From: a virus
Reading direction: 5' to 3' (one strand)
DNA: 41,896 nucleotides
Virus record (IMG/VR): IMGVR_UViG_3300047509_000127
Location: 1-41,896 of that record
In this document: in pieces, positions 1 to 41,896 of the stretch
Layout: each line of letters opens with the position of its first letter
How positions within the stretch are numbered: the stretch's first letter is position 1
Made by a program: the position numbers and the translations under genes
The notes under the pieces: generated by a model
What the model was told of the DNA's origin: nothing
Seen by the model: the letters and a program-made list of their open reading frames with translations, nothing else
Databases searched by the model: none

Positions 1-153
1 TACTCCAACTCCAACTCCCACTCCTACTCCAACTCCTACTCCTACTCCTACTCCAATTCCTACTCCCACTCCCACTCCAACTCCCACTCCCACTCCTACT
101 CCAACTCCTACTCCTACTCCAACTCCAACTCCCACTCCTACTCCTACTCCCAC
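1..153. repeat. Terminal overlap, left copy (hexanucleotide repeat)
   Basis: Tandem ACTCCN hexamers. Bases 1-120 match 41750-41869, and 127-153 match 41870-41896. The left copy carries one extra unit (AACTCC, 121-126). This is the signature of a circular or circularly permuted genome opened inside a repeat, with copy number differing by one unit. The repeat is the coding sequence of a minus-strand gene. Confidence 0.9.
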
Positions 154-205
154 TCCTACTCCTATTCCAATAGTCCCTTAAAAGGGATGCTTGGTATTGG
201 TTCAT
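1..205 (-). CDS. RS/WS/GS dipeptide-repeat protein, N-terminal part (crosses circle junction)
   Basis: ATG at 205-203 is preceded by a strong Shine-Dalgarno (GGAGGA, 211-216) that overlaps the stop codon of the upstream gene (216-218), so the two are translationally coupled. The protein opens [14 protein letters not shown] and then becomes an uninterrupted X-S dipeptide repeat with X = R, W or G and one N. Each hexanucleotide encodes one dipeptide. Read through the circle junction (base 1 joins 41749) the frame stays open to TAA at 41723-41721: 77 residues, about 31 repeat units. The composition (Arg, Trp, Ser, Gly) is that of a low-complexity, probably disordered, self-associating or nucleic-acid-binding peptide, but function is unknown. 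The alternative GVGV frame has no ATG, GTG or TTG start after its upstream stop. Confidence 0.75.
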
Positions 206-215
206 CACTTTCCTC

Positions 216-566
216 CTACGGCAGGTTGTGCGTCCAGACGAAAGCGTCCGAAATAGCACTCATGTTGATAAACATTTCCGAACCAACCGTTTCAACCTCA
301 CTTAGCACCCCTTTGGCTAGGGCTTCGGCAATGTTTCCGGTATCAAATACGCAAGCCGCATTCTCTAACACCAAAAAGTTCCCAACGATAGCCTTTACTT
401 GACCAGTAGCGAAGTAGGTGACCGTCCTAATTAGATACTTTCCTCCGACCTTAAAAGGCACTTCCAGGTTTTTATATTCTTGGGCGGATTTCTTGCTGTC
501 GACTTTCTTTTTCAGTTCTTCTAACTCAGCTAGCTCCGAGAGTAGTTGTTCTTTGGTTTTACTCAT
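216..566 (-). CDS. Small globular phage protein, partner of the RS-repeat protein
   Basis: 116 residues from ATG 566, chosen because AGGAGG lies seven bases upstream; a longer frame to 590 lacks such a site. Residues 1-30 form a charged helix (SKTKEQLLSELAELEELKKK). The rest looks like a compact beta-rich domain with GGKYLIRTVTYFATGQVK, then NFLVLENAACVFDTG and a C-terminal SAISDAFVWTHNLP. I recall the IRTVT...LVLENA...DTG pattern from uncharacterised phage proteins but cannot name a function. Its stop overlaps the ribosome-binding site of the dipeptide-repeat gene, which suggests the two products act together. Confidence 0.75.
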   Translation of the reverse strand: MSKTKEQLLSELAELEELKKKVDSKKSAQEYKNLEVPFKVGGKYLIRTVTYFATGQVKAIVGNFLVLENAACVFDTGNIAEALAKGVLSEVETVGSEMFINMSAISDAFVWTHNLP

Positions 567-4547: not shown

Positions 4548-5128
4548 CCTTAGAGGACTTTAAAGGAAGATTAGCTAACCGCTACGTCACCTTCGAGCTG
4601 AGCGTTCAGTGGTTTAAGGAGCACCGTGGCTGCATCATTGTTGAGACTGGCTGTGTTAGGTTAGAAGATGATTGGGGAGGGGCTGGGATGTCCACTATCG
4701 TCTTTGACCATGTCATTCAAAAGGAGAAGTTACGACTAGCCGGTACCACCCATCTCGAACCCAAGTTCTATTCTGTGGATCTTGATGAGAAGAACGTTTC
4801 GTTAGCTAGGAATCTCACCAAGGAAGCTGAGATATCCGTTGGGGACTCCGTAGCGTTCCTTGAGGACTTCCACGGATCGATTGACCTGCTCTACCTAGAT
4901 TCCTATGACTGTGACCCTGAGGGGGATTCTACCCCCGCACAAGAACACCAATTAGCTGAGGTTAGAGCATCTCTGCCTAAGATGGCCCTGCATTCCGCTA
5001 TCCTTCTAGATGATCGGGGAGATCCTCCATTTCCTGGTGGTGGAAAGACCAGGCTTAGTGAAGAATATCTACGCGATAAGGGTTGGGTTAGTTTATGGAC
5101 TGGGTATCAATCCCTGTGGGTTAGATGA
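4544..5128 (+). CDS. Class I SAM-dependent methyltransferase
   Basis: 194 residues. Motif I is IIVETGCVR (about residues 31-39), followed by FYSVDLDEKN (acidic residue at the end of strand 2), ISVGDSVAFLEDF and LLYLDSYD, in the order expected of a Rossmann-fold methyltransferase of the Methyltransf_24 type. The neighbours are glycosyltransferase-like, so the substrate is plausibly a glycan or sugar donor rather than DNA; that is inference. It overlaps the genes on both sides by four bases. Confidence 0.8.
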   Translation: MTLEDFKGRLANRYVTFELSVQWFKEHRGCIIVETGCVRLEDDWGGAGMSTIVFDHVIQKEKLRLAGTTHLEPKFYSVDLDEKNVSLARNLTKEAEISVGDSVAFLEDFHGSIDLLYLDSYDCDPEGDSTPAQEHQLAEVRASLPKMALHSAILLDDRGDPPFPGGGKTRLSEEYLRDKGWVSLWTGYQSLWVR

Positions 5129-6126
5129 ATATCCTCTACCTTTCCTGCCACTCGATAGCTGAATATGACGAATGCAAGCTCTTCCACGAGTTAGGACACA
5201 ACTTCTTCTCCCCGGGAGGATCTTATGAGAATCCGCAGAATCCTACCGATCCTAAGAGACCCCCGATTGATGCTCCGGTCTACCAACAGCTAATGGATGT
5301 GTCGAGGCAGAGTGATAAGTCTAATCTTCATCCCGAGTTAGTATCTTGGGCTGATGTGATCATTGACCACTTTATGCCTAGCTGGATTTCCGGCAACGCT
5401 CACCTTCTTGGTAGGAAACCACTCATCTGGCGTACCAATGGACAAAACGTTGGGGCTACCGAAGCCGATATGCAAAGGTTTAGAGATAAAGGACTAAAGA
5501 TAGTTCGATACTCAGAAGCTGAGCGCAACCTCCCAAGTTACGCTGGAGAGGACGCAGTCATTAGGTTTGGCAAAGATCCGGATGAGTATGGGGGATGGGT
5601 TGGAAACCATGCCGTAGTCTGCAACTTCACCCAGTCAATGAAACAGCGCGGGCCGCACTGCCACTACGATACCTTTAAACTGGTGACTGAGCCCTTTAAA
5701 ACCTACCTCTACGGACCTGGTAACGAGGATTCCGGCTTTGAAGGTGGTCTAATTCCCTACGATAAACTCAAAGAGGTCTTGCGTAACTGCCGAGTATATT
5801 TCTATTGCGGTACCGAGCCCGCTCCATACACTCTTAATTTTATAGAAGCATGGATGACCGGCATTCCAATCGTCGCACTTGGTCCAAAACTAGCTAATAC
5901 GCTCTTTCCAGACGTTAATACCTACGATATTCCTAACTTAATCACCAATGGAGTGGATGGTTTCTATTCCGATGACATAGAAACACTCAGGGACTATATA
6001 AAACTCCTGCTGACGGACGTTACAGCGGCTCACCAGATAGGAAGTATGGGTCGGCAGAAGGCTACCCGGGTATTCGGTATCGATAAAACTCGGGAGGGTT
6101 GGAAAAACTTCTTAGAAAGCTTATGA
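5125..6126 (+). CDS. Glycosyltransferase (GT-B type), first of three
   Basis: 333 residues. The N-terminal strand MNILYLSCHS and the C-terminal donor-binding region (NFIEAWMTGIPIVALGP, about residues 238-256) fit GT-B glycosyltransferases; the usual EAMA.G.P pattern is recognisable with a Trp variation. The C-terminus has MGRQKATRVFGIDKTREGW, typical of the closing helix of GT4-like enzymes. Likely transfers a sugar to a virion protein or cell-surface glycan. ATGA overlaps at both ends suggest a single co-translated cassette. Confidence 0.75.
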   Translation: MNILYLSCHSIAEYDECKLFHELGHNFFSPGGSYENPQNPTDPKRPPIDAPVYQQLMDVSRQSDKSNLHPELVSWADVIIDHFMPSWISGNAHLLGRKPLIWRTNGQNVGATEADMQRFRDKGLKIVRYSEAERNLPSYAGEDAVIRFGKDPDEYGGWVGNHAVVCNFTQSMKQRGPHCHYDTFKLVTEPFKTYLYGPGNEDSGFEGGLIPYDKLKEVLRNCRVYFYCGTEPAPYTLNFIEAWMTGIPIVALGPKLANTLFPDVNTYDIPNLITNGVDGFYSDDIETLRDYIKLLLTDVTAAHQIGSMGRQKATRVFGIDKTREGWKNFLESL

Positions 6127-7169
6127 AAATCTTTACTGACCTACATCACGGCAGTCTTTTCGAGTCACTAAGAATCTTGTTTGAAGATCGTTTAGGCCAT
6201 GAACTCTATCGTCCGATTGGTAAGGAGTGGCAGGATGCTGGATTTTGGGAGATAGCTCGTCCCTATAACAACGCTGCCGACACCACCGATCAGTATCTAG
6301 GCTTCCATACCGGTGTTTGGAATGCTGAAAAAGCCCTAAATGGATCAAGAGAAGAACTCGGTGACGGCATATACAGCGTTTTTGATACCTTTCACGGTGT
6401 TAAACAGAAAGCCATCACCTTTGAGGAGTTCAAAAAGCACAACTTTGACCTAATCCTCGCTACCTATCCCACCCACGGGACCGTCTATAAGAACTTAAGG
6501 GACCTTTACCAGCCGCAAGCTAAGCTCGCAGTCCAAATTGGCAATGGTGACCGCGATCCAAGCGAGGATCTAGCCGTTACGGACAATATTTTATATTCCG
6601 TGACCGACCCAAAACCCAAATCCGCATCAAACTACGTCATTTACCACCAAGAATTCAACCTTAAACCATTTCTAGCCGCCCGTAGGGTCACTCTTAAGAA
6701 AAAGATCGTCAATCTTATGCCACTACTAGTCGGAGAATCCTTAGAGTATTGGAACATGTTACGTGACGCCTTTCCAGAATTTGAGTATGAGTCTTGGGGA
6801 CCAGGAAATGAGTTGGGTAGTCTCCACAGTTTGAGAGAAATCGCCGATAAGATGGCTGAGGCAATGTTTGTCTTTCACGTGAAGTTCTTTGATGGATACG
6901 GGCACCTAATTCATAACGCCTACGCTGCCGGTAGACCTGTCCTAACTGTTGGTAGAGCCTACCAAGGAAGAATGGGCGGTAAACTATTTAGCCCTCGTAT
7001 CACTGGTATAGACCTAGACGAATCGGAGTGGAAGGAAGAACTCGAATTCTGGTCCCAACCTATCAACAACGAAACCTTAAGACGAAGTGCGGCGGCAAGG
7101 TTTGATACGGTGGTAGATTTCGCTAAGGAAGCGGAGGAAGTCCGATCATGGATACAGAACTTACGGTAG
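6123..7169 (+). CDS. Glycosyltransferase-like protein, second of three
   Basis: 348 residues from ATG 6123 (ATGA overlap with the preceding gene); an earlier in-frame ATG at 6099 is buried in the previous gene. It begins MKIFTDLHHGSLFESLRILF, a pattern I associate with phage GT-B-like proteins, and carries GYGHLIHNAYAAGRPVLTVG (about residues 258-277), equivalent to the nucleotide-sugar-binding end of GT-B folds. Function is inferred from fold-like motifs and context; the acceptor is unknown. Confidence 0.65.
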   Translation: MKIFTDLHHGSLFESLRILFEDRLGHELYRPIGKEWQDAGFWEIARPYNNAADTTDQYLGFHTGVWNAEKALNGSREELGDGIYSVFDTFHGVKQKAITFEEFKKHNFDLILATYPTHGTVYKNLRDLYQPQAKLAVQIGNGDRDPSEDLAVTDNILYSVTDPKPKSASNYVIYHQEFNLKPFLAARRVTLKKKIVNLMPLLVGESLEYWNMLRDAFPEFEYESWGPGNELGSLHSLREIADKMAEAMFVFHVKFFDGYGHLIHNAYAAGRPVLTVGRAYQGRMGGKLFSPRITGIDLDESEWKEELEFWSQPINNETLRRSAAARFDTVVDFAKEAEEVRSWIQNLR

Positions 7170-14318: not shown

Positions 14319-15491
14319 ATAAAGATTCTTTGGGTTAGTCCCGCACTTTGGATGAACACGGGATATGCCGTACAGTCCAGACGAATAATTCCCGAACTAC
14401 AACGCCTCGGACACGAGGTGGTCATCTTTTGCACCGCTGGTCTAGAAGGCGCTGAGCTGACTTACATGGGAGTTAGACACTTACCGAGGGGTAAACACTC
14501 CAATGGTGCTGATCTAGTACCCATTTACTTCTCTAAGGAGCACTGTGATCTGTTAGTTACGGTCCAAGACAATTGGGTGATGCCATATAAGATCTACCAA
14601 CATCTCCCTTGGGTTCCATGGATTCCAGTTGATGACGACCCCCCATCGAGAGAACTGGTTAAGACTTTAATAGGCACGGAATCTCTTGAAGCCAAGTCCA
14701 AACCGACAGCTAAAAAGACTCTCGTATATTCCAAATGGGGGGTGGGACAGCTTAAAAAGGTTGGTGTTGAGTCAGTCTATGTACCTGAGTCGGTCGACAC
14801 TTCGGTTTACATAGATCGAGGTAAGGAAGAGTCTAAAAAGAAGTTAGGATTTAAACCTGAGCACTTCGTGGTGGGAGTGGTAGCTGCTAACTTTGGCTAC
14901 CCTATGCGTAAGGCCTTTGATCGAATGATGATTGGGTTTGCTAAGTTTGCCGAGAACCACCCCAACGCTGTTCTTTATCTCCATACTAACGCTGACGAGT
15001 CCTGGCGCGGACATGACGCTTTTGACCTAATCGGACTTCTTAAACTGATCTCCGACGAGTATCCGAGTTTAGTTGGTAAAGTTATGTTTCCAGATCAGTA
15101 CCAACTATTTAGGGGTATTTCTGATGAGAAAATGTCTGAGATTTACTCAGCCTTCGATGTTTTACTTGCTTCTACCGGAGCGGAGGGGTTTGGGTTGCCT
15201 ATCCTAGAAGCTCAGAGTTGCTCAAGACCGCCAATAGTCACGGACTTCTCCTCAATGCCGGAGTTAGCCGACCATGGTTGGAAGGTCAAAGTTAAAGATA
15301 AGATGCTTACCGGACGTATGAGCTACCAGGTTTGGCCAGATGAAGACGATATTGCGGAAATACTAGAATATGCATCTAGGTCGGATCTCAAGTCTCGTGG
15401 TGAAGTCTGTAGGGACTTTGCCCTCCAGTTCGACAATAAAGTGGTAGCGGATACCTATTGGAAACCTCTTCTCACCTCCCTTAACGTATAA
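14319..15491 (+). CDS. Glycosyltransferase family 4-like, third of three (ATA start)
   Basis: About 390 residues. The first ATG is 14352, but the frame upstream reads KILWVSPALW, the conserved first beta strand and loop of GT-B enzymes, before MNTGYAVQS. A perfect AAGGAG (14306-14311) lies seven bases before ATA 14319, whereas no ribosome site precedes the ATG. ATA is therefore the likely start. The C-terminal domain has MSEIYSAFDVLLASTGAEGF and GLPILEAQSCSRPPIVTDFS, the GT4 donor site with its paired Glu. It may glycosylate capsid or fibre proteins, given its position between capsid and adaptor genes. Confidence 0.85.
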   Translation: MKILWVSPALWMNTGYAVQSRRIIPELQRLGHEVVIFCTAGLEGAELTYMGVRHLPRGKHSNGADLVPIYFSKEHCDLLVTVQDNWVMPYKIYQHLPWVPWIPVDDDPPSRELVKTLIGTESLEAKSKPTAKKTLVYSKWGVGQLKKVGVESVYVPESVDTSVYIDRGKEESKKKLGFKPEHFVVGVVAANFGYPMRKAFDRMMIGFAKFAENHPNAVLYLHTNADESWRGHDAFDLIGLLKLISDEYPSLVGKVMFPDQYQLFRGISDEKMSEIYSAFDVLLASTGAEGFGLPILEAQSCSRPPIVTDFSSMPELADHGWKVKVKDKMLTGRMSYQVWPDEDDIAEILEYASRSDLKSRGEVCRDFALQFDNKVVADTYWKPLLTSLNV

Positions 15492-34709: not shown

Positions 34710-34920
34710 GGGGCCCTCCTATACATAAACCTCTTGCAACGTGTTTTCTAGCCGATGTTTTACATCGTAGACACGCATCATATTTTCTTGACCAAGCGAT
34801 TAGATATCCCCTATCCCCAGTCCTATTATTTACTTGGAACCAACTTTTAGTCTTTGTATAACACCGTAGGCATAATCCAAAAGCTTCGTGTCTTGTATCG
34901 TTTCTACCACCAAGAGTGCT
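34696..34920 (-). pseudogene. Start-less fragment of a tandem zinc-finger protein
   Basis: A 74-codon open frame with no ATG, GTG or TTG near its 5' end, which overlaps the end of the lysozyme-like gene by 17 bases. It reads GGRNDTRHEAFGLCLRCYTK, then WSRKYDACLRCKTSARKHVA and RGLC: two copies of a C-x2-C ... H-x-A-x-GLC finger, the first lacking its N-terminal CxxC and the second its last Cys pair. It looks like the remnant of a larger gene truncated by the muralytic gene. It would need frameshifting or a non-standard start to be expressed. Confidence 0.6.
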
Positions 34921-35425
34921 CTAACCAGAACCTATACGCATTCTTCCAGGCTGAATATCGATGGATCATATAACCAGTGAAGTATCTATCATCGCATGCA
35001 TAATCAACCTTCCACTGTGGGCAAACAGAGGAGAGACGTGTGCATGGCAAGGATTGACCCAAGGAACACGCGCCCGAGCGGGGATTAACTCTTGCGGGAT
35101 CGTTCCCAGACTCCTTGTTATAAATATATAGCTTGAAGAAATTAGAACCCCCGCTGCTCAGGCTGTGGATTAAGGCAGTCTGAACTGACGGGGGGATATA
35201 CTCAGCCGAGATGAGGGTTCCATCCATAACGGAGTTAGATGGTCCGTTCATCCCAGCCTCTATTTTATCAGGAGGGGCAGCGGTCATAAAGCTGTATGGG
35301 GAAATGGTAGTAGCAGAAACAGTTTTAACCTCTGGAGTTTGGGAGAAGGGGAGAAGGGATACGATAACGAGAGCTGAAAGCAAGGCCGCTTTTTTAATAG
35401 CCCTCTTGTATATCGGTTGTTCCAT
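34904..35425 (-). CDS. Secreted lysozyme / transglycosylase-like protein
   Basis: 173 residues. N-terminal signal or anchor (AALLSALVIVSLLPFSQTPE, about 13-32). The C-terminal 80 residues resemble small secreted muralytic domains: KLYIYNKESGNDPARVNPRS with candidate catalytic Glu, then YACDDRYFTGYMIHRYSAWK and the characteristic C-terminal FWLEHSWW. Two Cys pairs may form disulfides. Cell-wall degradation or remodelling is likely. No Shine-Dalgarno precedes the ATG; the long leader is strongly structured. Confidence 0.7.
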   Translation of the reverse strand: MEQPIYKRAIKKAALLSALVIVSLLPFSQTPEVKTVSATTISPYSFMTAAPPDKIEAGMNGPSNSVMDGTLISAEYIPPSVQTALIHSLSSGGSNFFKLYIYNKESGNDPARVNPRSGACSLGQSLPCTRLSSVCPQWKVDYACDDRYFTGYMIHRYSAWKNAYRFWLEHSWW

Positions 35426-36779: not shown

Positions 36780-37079
36780 TTAGTAGCCGTTGCCGTAGCC
36801 GTCGCCGTAGCCGTTGCCGTAGCCGTAGCCGTAGCCGTAGCCGTAGCCGTAGCCGTAGCCGTTGCCGTAGCCGTTGCCGTAGCCGTTGCCGTAGCCGTCG
36901 CCGTAGCCGTTGCCGTCGCCGTAGCCGTAGCCGTAGCCGTAGCCGTAGCCGTTGCCGTAGCCGTTGCCGTCGCCGTAGCCGTCGCCGTTGCCGTAGCCGT
37001 CGCCGTTGCCGTACTTCAGAGAAGCTTGCGATTCCTCGTAGTTAATCGTTCTTTTAGTTAAGACAGATGCTTGCTCCAT
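36780..37079 (-). CDS. GY/GN/GD dipeptide-repeat protein
   Basis: 99 residues. ATG 37079 has GAGGAGG five bases upstream, inside the 3' end of the partner gene (22-base overlap), so translation is coupled. A 23-residue head (MEQASVLTKRTINYEESQAS) leads to Gly-X dipeptides to the end, X = Tyr, Asn or Asp. Each hexanucleotide GGC-NAC encodes one dipeptide: 38 units at 36786-37013. The head ends QASL, like the RS-repeat protein (YQASL). Gly-Tyr polymers are typical of silk-like or phase-separating proteins; function here is unknown. Confidence 0.75.
   Translation of the reverse strand: MEQASVLTKRTINYEESQASLKYGNGDGYGNGDGYGDGNGYGNGYGYGYGYGYGDGNGYGDGYGNGYGNGYGNGYGYGYGYGYGYGYGNGYGDGYGNGY
36786..37013. 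repeat. GCCGTN hexanucleotide tandem repeat, 38 units
   Basis: 228 bases of GCCGTA, GCCGTT and GCCGTC with no interruptions, all inside the GY-repeat gene. Substitutions fall only at one position, always keeping Tyr, Asn or Asp. Confidence 0.95.
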
Positions 37080-37387
37080 TTATCCTCCTCGCAGTCCACA
37101 GCTAGAACAACGGTTAGATAGTCGAATCTTCCAGTTCCAAAAGGGTCTAGTTTAGTAGAAGAGGTAGGGCCGTTCTCGGCAATTTCTCCTAACCCTTTAG
37201 TTGTTCCCCAGGTTCTTATGACCGAAGCATTTTCGATAGTGCAGTCGTTACCCTCTCTTTTAAACCTTCCGACCACACACCATCCCCTCTGTAGGATGAC
37301 TATTTTAACGGGACTATCTGAGTTGCTAGACTTGCAGTCAGACTTTCTGATGTAGACTTCATCGTCTACGGTTATTTGTTTGGACAT
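37058..37387 (-). CDS. Small globular phage protein, partner of the GY-repeat protein
   Basis: 109 residues from ATG 37387 (GGAGGT upstream), preferred over a start 15 bases earlier. Contains VKIVILQRGWCVVGRF, VIRTWGTTKGLGEIAENGPT and a C-terminal YLTVVLAVDCEEDKW, a pattern I recall from uncharacterised phage and bacterial proteins (possibly DUF6948; not certain). Beta-rich and compact. Its 3' end carries the ribosome site of the dipeptide-repeat gene, as in the module at 216-566. Confidence 0.75.
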   Translation of the reverse strand: MSKQITVDDEVYIRKSDCKSSNSDSPVKIVILQRGWCVVGRFKREGNDCTIENASVIRTWGTTKGLGEIAENGPTSSTKLDPFGTGRFDYLTVVLAVDCEEDKWSKHLS

Positions 37388-41064: not shown

Positions 41065-41613
41065 TTACCTTGTTAAGTAGGCTTTGTATACGCCAGATTG
41101 AAACGTGCTCCAAGGTTGAAAGCCTCGTTCCTGCCAGAGCTTGTATGCGTCGTCTACGTTCTGCTTGTAACTAGTCCAGTTAGCTTCATACCAGTGGAGT
41201 TGAAAGACTCCAAAGGATGGGCTAAAGGTTGGACCAAACTTAGCGTCACCGTAGTCGATAGCATTAGGGTTTAACCCACTTTCCGCCTTAGCAACTGCCA
41301 GGGCAATAGAAGCGTTCCAAGCCTTAGAACGGATGTAGTTTTCTATATCTGAACCGATATTGGTTGGAACTAACTTCGAGGCTGTATTGACGCTCACAGG
41401 AGCCTGCGTACCGGCCACAGTTAGCTGTCTAACACCAGGCCCGTTACTGAAGTCCGTGATGTCAGTGCTTGGACGAACGGTACCTTTGGTTGGACAAGAG
41501 TTGTCCTGGTGACAATCCCAACTAGCAACCTTGGTGGTTGGCAAGAGGGACATACCAAAGGGCACAGCTAGCAGGAACATGAGGACAAGAATTGAAGATC
41601 TGTGTTTTCTCAT
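41065..41613 (-). CDS. Secreted lysozyme / lytic transglycosylase-like protein
   Basis: 182 residues from ATG 41613; an in-frame GTG at 41628 is less likely because its ribosome site is too close. Signal peptide or anchor SSILVLMFLLAVPFGMSLLP, a Thr/Ser-rich linker with one Cys pair, then the catalytic-domain pattern AVAKAESGLNPNAIDYGDAK (candidate Glu) and FSPSFGVFQLHWYEANW, ending YKLWQERGFQPWSTFQSGVY. Acts on peptidoglycan outside the membrane. A different sequence from the one at 34904, so not a recent duplicate. Confidence 0.75.
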   Translation of the reverse strand: MRKHRSSILVLMFLLAVPFGMSLLPTTKVASWDCHQDNSCPTKGTVRPSTDITDFSNGPGVRQLTVAGTQAPVSVNTASKLVPTNIGSDIENYIRSKAWNASIALAVAKAESGLNPNAIDYGDAKFGPTFSPSFGVFQLHWYEANWTSYKQNVDDAYKLWQERGFQPWSTFQSGVYKAYLTR

Positions 41614-41720: not shown

Positions 41721-41896
41721 TTAATAACTCCTACTCCAACTCCTACTCCTACTCCAACTCCAACTCCCACTCCTACTCCAACTCCTACTCCTACTCCTAC
41801 TCCAATTCCTACTCCCACTCCCACTCCAACTCCCACTCCCACTCCTACTCCAACTCCTACTCCTACTCCAACTCCCACTCCTACTCCTACTCCCAC
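41721..41896 (-). CDS. RS/WS/GS dipeptide-repeat protein, C-terminal part
   Basis: Continuation of the gene that starts at 205 on the minus strand and runs off base 1. In this copy the X-S frame ends with ...SRSWSRSY and TAA at 41723-41721. The 41750-41896 part duplicates bases 1-153 minus one hexamer, i.e. two residues fewer. The longer-looking GVGV frame that runs through this end is rejected because it has no start in the circular reading. Confidence 0.7.
41750..41896. repeat. Terminal overlap, right copy
   Basis: Identical to 1-153 apart from one missing 6-base unit. See the left copy for the circularity argument. Confidence 0.9.

Follow-up and report, generated by a model that had tools for sequence, protein, structure and literature searches.

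We found that a small protein with a predicted Sm/LSm fold and a dipeptide-repeat protein, which is probably disordered, form a translationally coupled gene pair in phages. The repeat protein follows a simple plan, in which a short leader precedes a polymer of a constant Ser or Gly alternating with a variable residue. The variable residues include Trp or Tyr and, besides these aromatics, Arg (family A) or Asp/Asn (family B). This gene pair is widespread among viruses, with many unrelated phages among its carriers; it occurs in at least three sequence families and is not a peculiarity of the phage described here. From the consistency of the pairing, the two partners very probably work together.

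A two-gene module split by the ends of the record

The window, i.e., the whole stretch of 41,896 bases that was analysed, starts and ends in one and the same hexanucleotide array (Table 1). An alignment of its last 147 bases with its first 153 contains one gap of 6 nt. As the ends overlap over 153 nt with only this indel, the record is circular, and its junction lies inside the array. The sequence-only reading had placed a gene across the joined ends, starting at ATG 205 with a Shine-Dalgarno sequence that overlaps the previous stop. This is confirmed by the end overlap and by the start context (TAGGAGGAAAGTGATG), in which a GGAGG Shine-Dalgarno sequence overlaps the TAG stop of the partner gene a few bases before the ATG. 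The joined Xaa-Ser (X-Ser) ORF runs from 205 to 1 and continues from 41749 to 41721, with RSWSRSY at the C-terminus. It encodes 77 amino acids with 30 pairs in the left allele or 75 amino acids with 29 pairs in the right allele, and the true copy number may differ from that in this short-read assembly. The array that had been proposed, with about 31 X-Ser dipeptides each encoded by one hexanucleotide, is thus present with 29–30 pairs. In these units X is Arg, Trp or Gly, encoded by AGG, TGG or GGG followed by AGT. Simply abutting the record ends would give an X-Ser ORF of 126 amino acids, but because the ends overlap, the form of 75–77 amino acids is far likelier. That the two ends differ by 6 nt agrees with a hypervariable array.

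Table 1. Positions of the record, module A and module B features.
Feature	Position	Strand	Details
Analysed record, IMGVR_UViG_3300047509_000127	41,896 bases		Single virus record
X-Ser repeat ORF, 5' part	1..205	(-)	ATG 205; short leader, then RSRSGSRS...
X-Ser repeat ORF, 3' end across circular junction	41721..41749	(-)	Ends WSRSY; TAA 41723-41721
Terminal redundancy	41750..41896	(-)	Second array copy, assembly overlap; matches 1-153 minus one 6-nt deletion
Module A partner	216..566	(-)	ORF, 116 aa; ATG 566; family A, predicted Sm/LSm fold
Module B partner	37058..37387	(-)	ORF, 109 aa; family B, predicted Sm/LSm fold, distant DUF6948 relative
Module B repeat ORF	36780..37079	(-)	99 aa; leader MEQASVLTKRTINYEESQASLK, then (Gly-[Tyr/Asn/Asp])n

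Period-6 matches in the window array amounted to 56/60, against at most 33 across 100 base shuffles. A chance repeat or an assembly artefact was ruled out, as the periodicity is far above that of the shuffles and is conserved in relatives. Linear annotation lists an open-ended GVGV ORF, which the sequence-only reading had rightly called the wrong frame: the coupled start is found in the X-Ser frame only, and it is this frame that recurs in relatives. The leader motif LLRDYW of the window ORF is shared with three related loci (L101, L102 and L103, the last with LLQDYW). We consider it near certain that module A is a two-gene unit split by the contig break. Its description as a real coupled pair hidden by that break stood up, but the module extends beyond this phage to at least three sequence families. 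Contig ends or starts also fall inside such arrays in two related loci (L099 and L111), as they do in the window. As several contigs begin or end in this manner, repeat genes are systematically broken by short-read assembly, and contig ends inside such arrays are a recurrent artefact.

The phage in the window carries two such pairs, namely module A (Ser-X) and module B (Gly-X; 36780-37387). The repeat ORF of module B starts 22 nt inside its partner gene, with GAGGAGG as the Shine-Dalgarno sequence. A further in-frame ATG lies upstream of the module A partner at 590, and a YopX-family protein is encoded directly upstream of this partner (609-1004).

The gene pair in related phages

Loci were fetched from IMG/VR by partner sequence alone, with no repeat in the query, which yielded 144 relatives of the A partner and 215 of the B partner. 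We kept 80 relatives per family, of which 76 (A) and 77 (B) had enough downstream DNA to be evaluated with a uniform script. A Ser-[Arg/Trp/Gly] ORF was found near the end of the partner in 68/76 A loci, and a Gly-[Tyr/Asn/Asp/Ser] ORF in 72/77 B loci; these tallies count loci, some of them near-duplicates, and not independent events, and two of the positives (L113 and L152) are weak. The start of the repeat ORF usually overlaps the partner stop in both families, and the types match in the coupled frame, i.e., A partners are followed by Ser-X and B partners by Gly-X. The sequence-only reading had called the 116-residue partner conserved-looking and co-translated. Its conservation is borne out by the 144 relatives in viral contigs, and the module also passed the refutation test set by that reading, in which partner homologues were checked for a missing repeat frame downstream.

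Most exceptions dissolve into moved, multiplied, degenerate or contig-end cases. The repeat gene has moved relative to the partner in L107, L066 and L073, and it lies ahead of the partner in L066 and L098. In L103 (2758-3481), an HNH endonuclease gene is inserted between the two genes. L098 (1618-2451) contains four tandem paralogous Ser-[Arg/Trp/Gly/Met] genes upstream of the Sm-fold gene, which share an identical leader (MNNFPLIAGYDLYYRSRS) and differ in their arrays. These tandem genes form a multigene family inside one phage. Three tandem repeat genes are found at one partner in L145. L100 and L148 have degenerate or short repeat ORFs; that of L100 is coupled and R/S/W-rich, uses AGA codons and contains no array. 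L121 and L175 are exceptions in appearance only, as their contigs end there. Two loci, L090 and L092, have no repeat ORF near the partner and are left standing as exceptions.

The pair is found in phages of Gammaproteobacteria, Rhodobacteraceae and Chlorobiaceae, in contigs of Saprospiraceae and Verrucomicrobiia bins and in hundreds of viral contigs. MW202573 is the only named phage record with a relative of A, and its repeat peptide is encoded directly behind the partner. The B pair was found in 115 Rheinheimera phages and in all three bacterial MAG contigs examined. Neither A nor DUF6948 (see below) had a match in 369 Gammaproteobacteria genomes, which says little about a cellular origin as this search gave no positive control signal, and A had no match on plasmids. 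Genomes with both pairs are rare: B was found in 4/50 A-phages and A in 1/50 B-phages. As A and B seldom share a genome, they do not in general make up a set of two matching, oppositely charged polymers, and these counts rule out an obligate, oppositely charged A and B pair in one phage. Several Sm-fold/repeat modules of different types lie within a few kilobases of each other in L122, L177 and L142, and one 36-kb phage contig (3300010371_000024) carries two B-type pairs (L018 and L019). We found no constant third gene, as the largest neighbour family occurred in just 9/140 loci. Recognisable neighbours are early genes for replication, recombination and methylases.

A third family, DUF6948

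Window protein B matched Pfam PF22253 (DUF6948) at E=0.0057 and 17.2 bits, below the gathering cut-off of 27 bits, and the best match among B-family members was 8.8e-8; window protein A had no Pfam match. The window proteins are therefore relatives and not members of DUF6948. Family C of the module, in contrast, consists of proteins that match DUF6948 with 107-117 bits (E 1e-30 to 1e-34), and these also precede Gly-[Ser/Tyr/Asp] ORFs. We inspected six DUF6948 loci and found such an ORF behind the partner in each, in one case in degenerate form. The carriers are Iodobacter phage PhiPLPE, Pectobacterium phage Koroua, Chlorobiaceae phage CV-1-33, an uncultivated podovirus and L103; Vibrio phage IKEMa6-1 encodes a close DUF6948 relative with a Gly-[Ser/Tyr/Asp] ORF behind it. 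The repeat ORF of PhiPLPE (L181:1172-1409), behind gp84, is absent from the GenBank annotation. In profile comparisons, DUF6948 matched B at E 3e-7 (probability 93) and A at E 1e-5 (probability 82), while A and B did not match each other directly. Because the DUF6948 profile bridges to both, we group the three families into a single superfamily.

Predicted Sm/LSm fold of the partner proteins

The two families were modelled independently with AlphaFold, with 67 aligned sequences as input for B and 69 for A. The models reached a pLDDT of 90 (B) and 92 (A), and both have the strand order of the Sm fold, with an N-terminal helix and a five-stranded bent sheet. In Foldseek searches against the PDB, partner B was closest to 3by7 (E 2e-4, TM normalised to target 0.64-0.70), followed by the designed TIP60 particle and then by Lsm and archaeal Sm proteins. 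Partner A was closest to yeast and archaeal Lsm proteins (E 1e-3, TM normalised to target about 0.7), and its top 50 is dominated by Sm/LSm structures, including yeast and human Sm/Lsm, archaeal SmAP and LSM14. Both partners are therefore predicted to adopt an Sm/LSm fold. Neither the window partners nor alignments of 73 A and 13 B members matched the Pfam LSM/Hfq families, and a PDB sequence search returned no Sm family for the partners. As sequence profiles see no Sm family, this is an assignment of fold and not proof of homology. A loose pattern for the RG-like Sm2 signature is present in 38/69 family A members and absent from the A protein of the window.

The PDB describes 3by7 as structurally similar to Sm/LSm RNA-binding proteins. 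Like partner B, for which the fold is predicted, it is a small protein with one Sm domain, and it probably stems from a phage; the structural alignment of the two has 19% identity. It is reported to be a pentamer of putative cyanophage origin, from which the TIP60 cages are built. As a rule, Sm folds bind RNA; SmB, SmD1 and SmD3 carry RG-rich tails, and Hfq has a disordered C-terminus. The predicted fold likens the module to these proteins, in which an Sm fold is joined to a low-complexity tail rich in Gly/Arg or in acidic residues, and the partners may form rings and bind RNA. Unlike in SmB, SmD1, SmD3 and Hfq, however, the tail in the module is a separate, co-translated protein, with strict alternation of two residues and very fast changes in length.

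Conservation at the protein level

As judged by comparing loci, it is the protein product that is conserved, and not the DNA. The dominant Ser codon in A loci is TCG (28), TCT (15), AGC (12), TCA (8) or AGT (5). The two blocks of Ser codons are not linked by any single synonymous step, so different hexamers have given rise to one and the same dipeptide. The array thus lacks the conserved DNA unit of a DNA iteron or origin array; the unit varies from locus to locus, and the pattern of the peptide stays the same. The X residues of the A arrays are R (571), G (479) and W (454), and the variable residues of the B arrays are Y (870), D (671) and N (473), with just 22 His, even though CAY is one transition away from TAY. 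Leaders recur as well, with R-x-G-[FYW]-[DE] types before Ser-X and NFEDSQNTYG or GEDSQTTYG types before Gly-X. Some regularity is seen at the DNA level: NGG makes up 92-95% of the Arg/Gly codons in A arrays, and B arrays have GGN in each hexamer. In A arrays of low periodicity NGG falls to 70%, against 99%, while the R/S/W/G composition is largely retained. The persistence of NGG may be due to Trp, as TGG, AGG, CGG and GGG are a set connected by single steps that encodes W, R and G.

The encoded repeats are of two chemical types, with S-[RWG] as the cationic polymer and G-[YND] as the anionic one. Repeat regions have a positive net charge in 68/68 A loci (mean +8) and a negative one in 69/72 B loci (mean -9), and aromatic residues account for 14% (A) and 19% (B). 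Both compositions are of the sticker-and-spacer type (aromatic Trp/Tyr with constant Ser or Gly), which is typical of condensate-forming sequences. Partners are on average acidic in A and basic in B, opposite to their repeats, which would fit direct binding. Within families, partner and repeat charge gave no signal of co-variation (Spearman p 0.33 and 0.13), and DUF6948 breaks the pattern, as its partner and repeats are both acidic. The charge complementarity therefore essentially amounts to two data points.

Hypervariability of the arrays

The sequence-only reading had called the array hypervariable, a claim that is borne out in relatives. Five contig pairs with (near-)identical partners have arrays that differ by whole hexamers or swaps (L117/L118, L149/L151, L134/L135, L023/L024 and L067/L069), while in other pairs with near-identical partners the arrays are identical too. 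Seven cultured Rheinheimera phages have 0-2 differences in 495 bases spanning the upstream region and the partner, and their repeat proteins of 69, 71, 79 or 83 amino acids comprise at least six different sequences. Arrays with identical flanks are natural libraries of length and composition, and the gene pair is directly accessible to tests in cultured phages. The Borg elements of archaea also contain fast-evolving coding tandem repeats that make disordered protein segments. Borg repeats resemble those of the module in being in-frame, disordered and rapidly evolving, but they occur in many unrelated genes, whereas in the module the unit length and the partner family are fixed and the chemistry is of two kinds.

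Possible function of the module

Our best model, which we put forward as possible rather than probable, is that disordered multivalent tails are collected in trans by an Sm-type ring, so that an RNA/protein assembly arises early in infection. In this model, the Sm-fold partner would form a ring on which the leader of the repeat protein docks, so that the ring would carry several multivalent tails in trans, comparable to the cis RG tails of SmB/D1/D3 and the cis disordered C-terminus of Hfq. Aromatic stickers together with Arg (or Asp/Asn) could then build an assembly, condensate or granule that recruits RNA or protein, acting in the early phase of infection. The length of the array would shift by slippage of whole hexamers and, as this keeps the frame, the valency of the tails could be tuned cheaply. 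A more specific form is rather doubtful, in which the module is a phage-encoded Sm-type RNP scaffold, with a ring, hypervariable dipeptide tails in trans and a virus-made condensate inside infected bacteria, in S-[RWG] and G-[YND] versions. An earlier suggestion that the X-Ser product is sticky and possibly binds nucleic acids or membranes is compatible with the data, which contain nothing specific to membranes.

The repeat protein could instead be a host-acting polymer that the Sm-fold protein chaperones or neutralises in the producing cell. In family A, an Arg/Trp-rich peptide would then stick to membranes or to RNA, including rRNA, as a peptide of the same general kind as the toxic poly-GR/PR dipeptides. 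Strict co-translation, the strongly cationic, Trp-containing A repeats and the multiplication of effector-like copies at one partner (four in L098, three in L145) agree with this. We nevertheless consider it unlikely, as the repeats of B and C have a negative charge, are rich in Gly and do not resemble toxins, and as the repeat gene can precede its partner (L066 and L098), where a keeper would be expected first. The polymer might also be a structural, adhesive or decoy protein of the virion or cell surface, anchored or chaperoned by the Sm-fold protein, given that polymers of aromatic residues with Gly or Ser resemble adhesive or silk-like proteins and that hypervariability suits surface exposure. 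This is very unlikely, however, as the module has no conserved neighbours, the recognisable ones being early genes, and no signal peptide was seen among the leaders inspected.

Other readings place the function in nucleic acid. The array in the mRNA, with GG every six bases in both families, might be the ligand of the Sm fold, acting in autoregulation, as an RNA sponge or as a G-quadruplex, with the peptide incidental. The high share of NGG in A, the GGN of every B hexamer and the general RNA binding of Sm folds point in this direction, but the remaining hexamer positions vary freely across loci, both Ser codon blocks are used, and NGG drops in the low-periodicity arrays while composition is kept. 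As L100 moreover has its coupled ORF with no array, leaders and start sites are conserved, and the strong bias against His is a signature at the protein level, we regard an RNA element as quite unlikely. Hexamer slippage does drive the evolution of the arrays, as would be expected of a neutral microsatellite or of an origin, packaging or recombination site. Such a non-coding role is nonetheless most improbable and largely refuted, since unrelated hexamers yield the same amino-acid pattern, in a fixed position right after one protein family, with coupled starts, leaders and tandem gene duplication.

Relation to known systems

Sm-like proteins of phages are a known kind, as are low-complexity proteins, and their fixed combination fits no system known from the open-access literature; we make no claim of priority. 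In this literature, we found no paper on DUF6948, GYGDGYG, SRSRSWS or a phage Sm-like/repeat pair, and two Rheinheimera phage papers contain no mention of the gene pair under the terms searched. One of the two genes is a DUF or lacks annotation, and gene calling or assembly usually misses the other, so that the pair falls into a blind spot of phage biology. In this pair, a predicted Sm/Hfq-type fold is coupled with simple polymers of the condensate type (Tyr/Trp stickers, Gly/Ser spacers, Arg versus Asp).

Elsewhere in the window, two secreted-looking, transglycosylase-like proteins are encoded at 41065-41610 and 34904-35425, with weak SLT_3/SLT and PHROG transglycosylase matches. To judge from their translations, three ORFs in that half of the phage genome which holds the structural genes (within 5125-7169 and 14352-15491) are glycosyltransferase-like.
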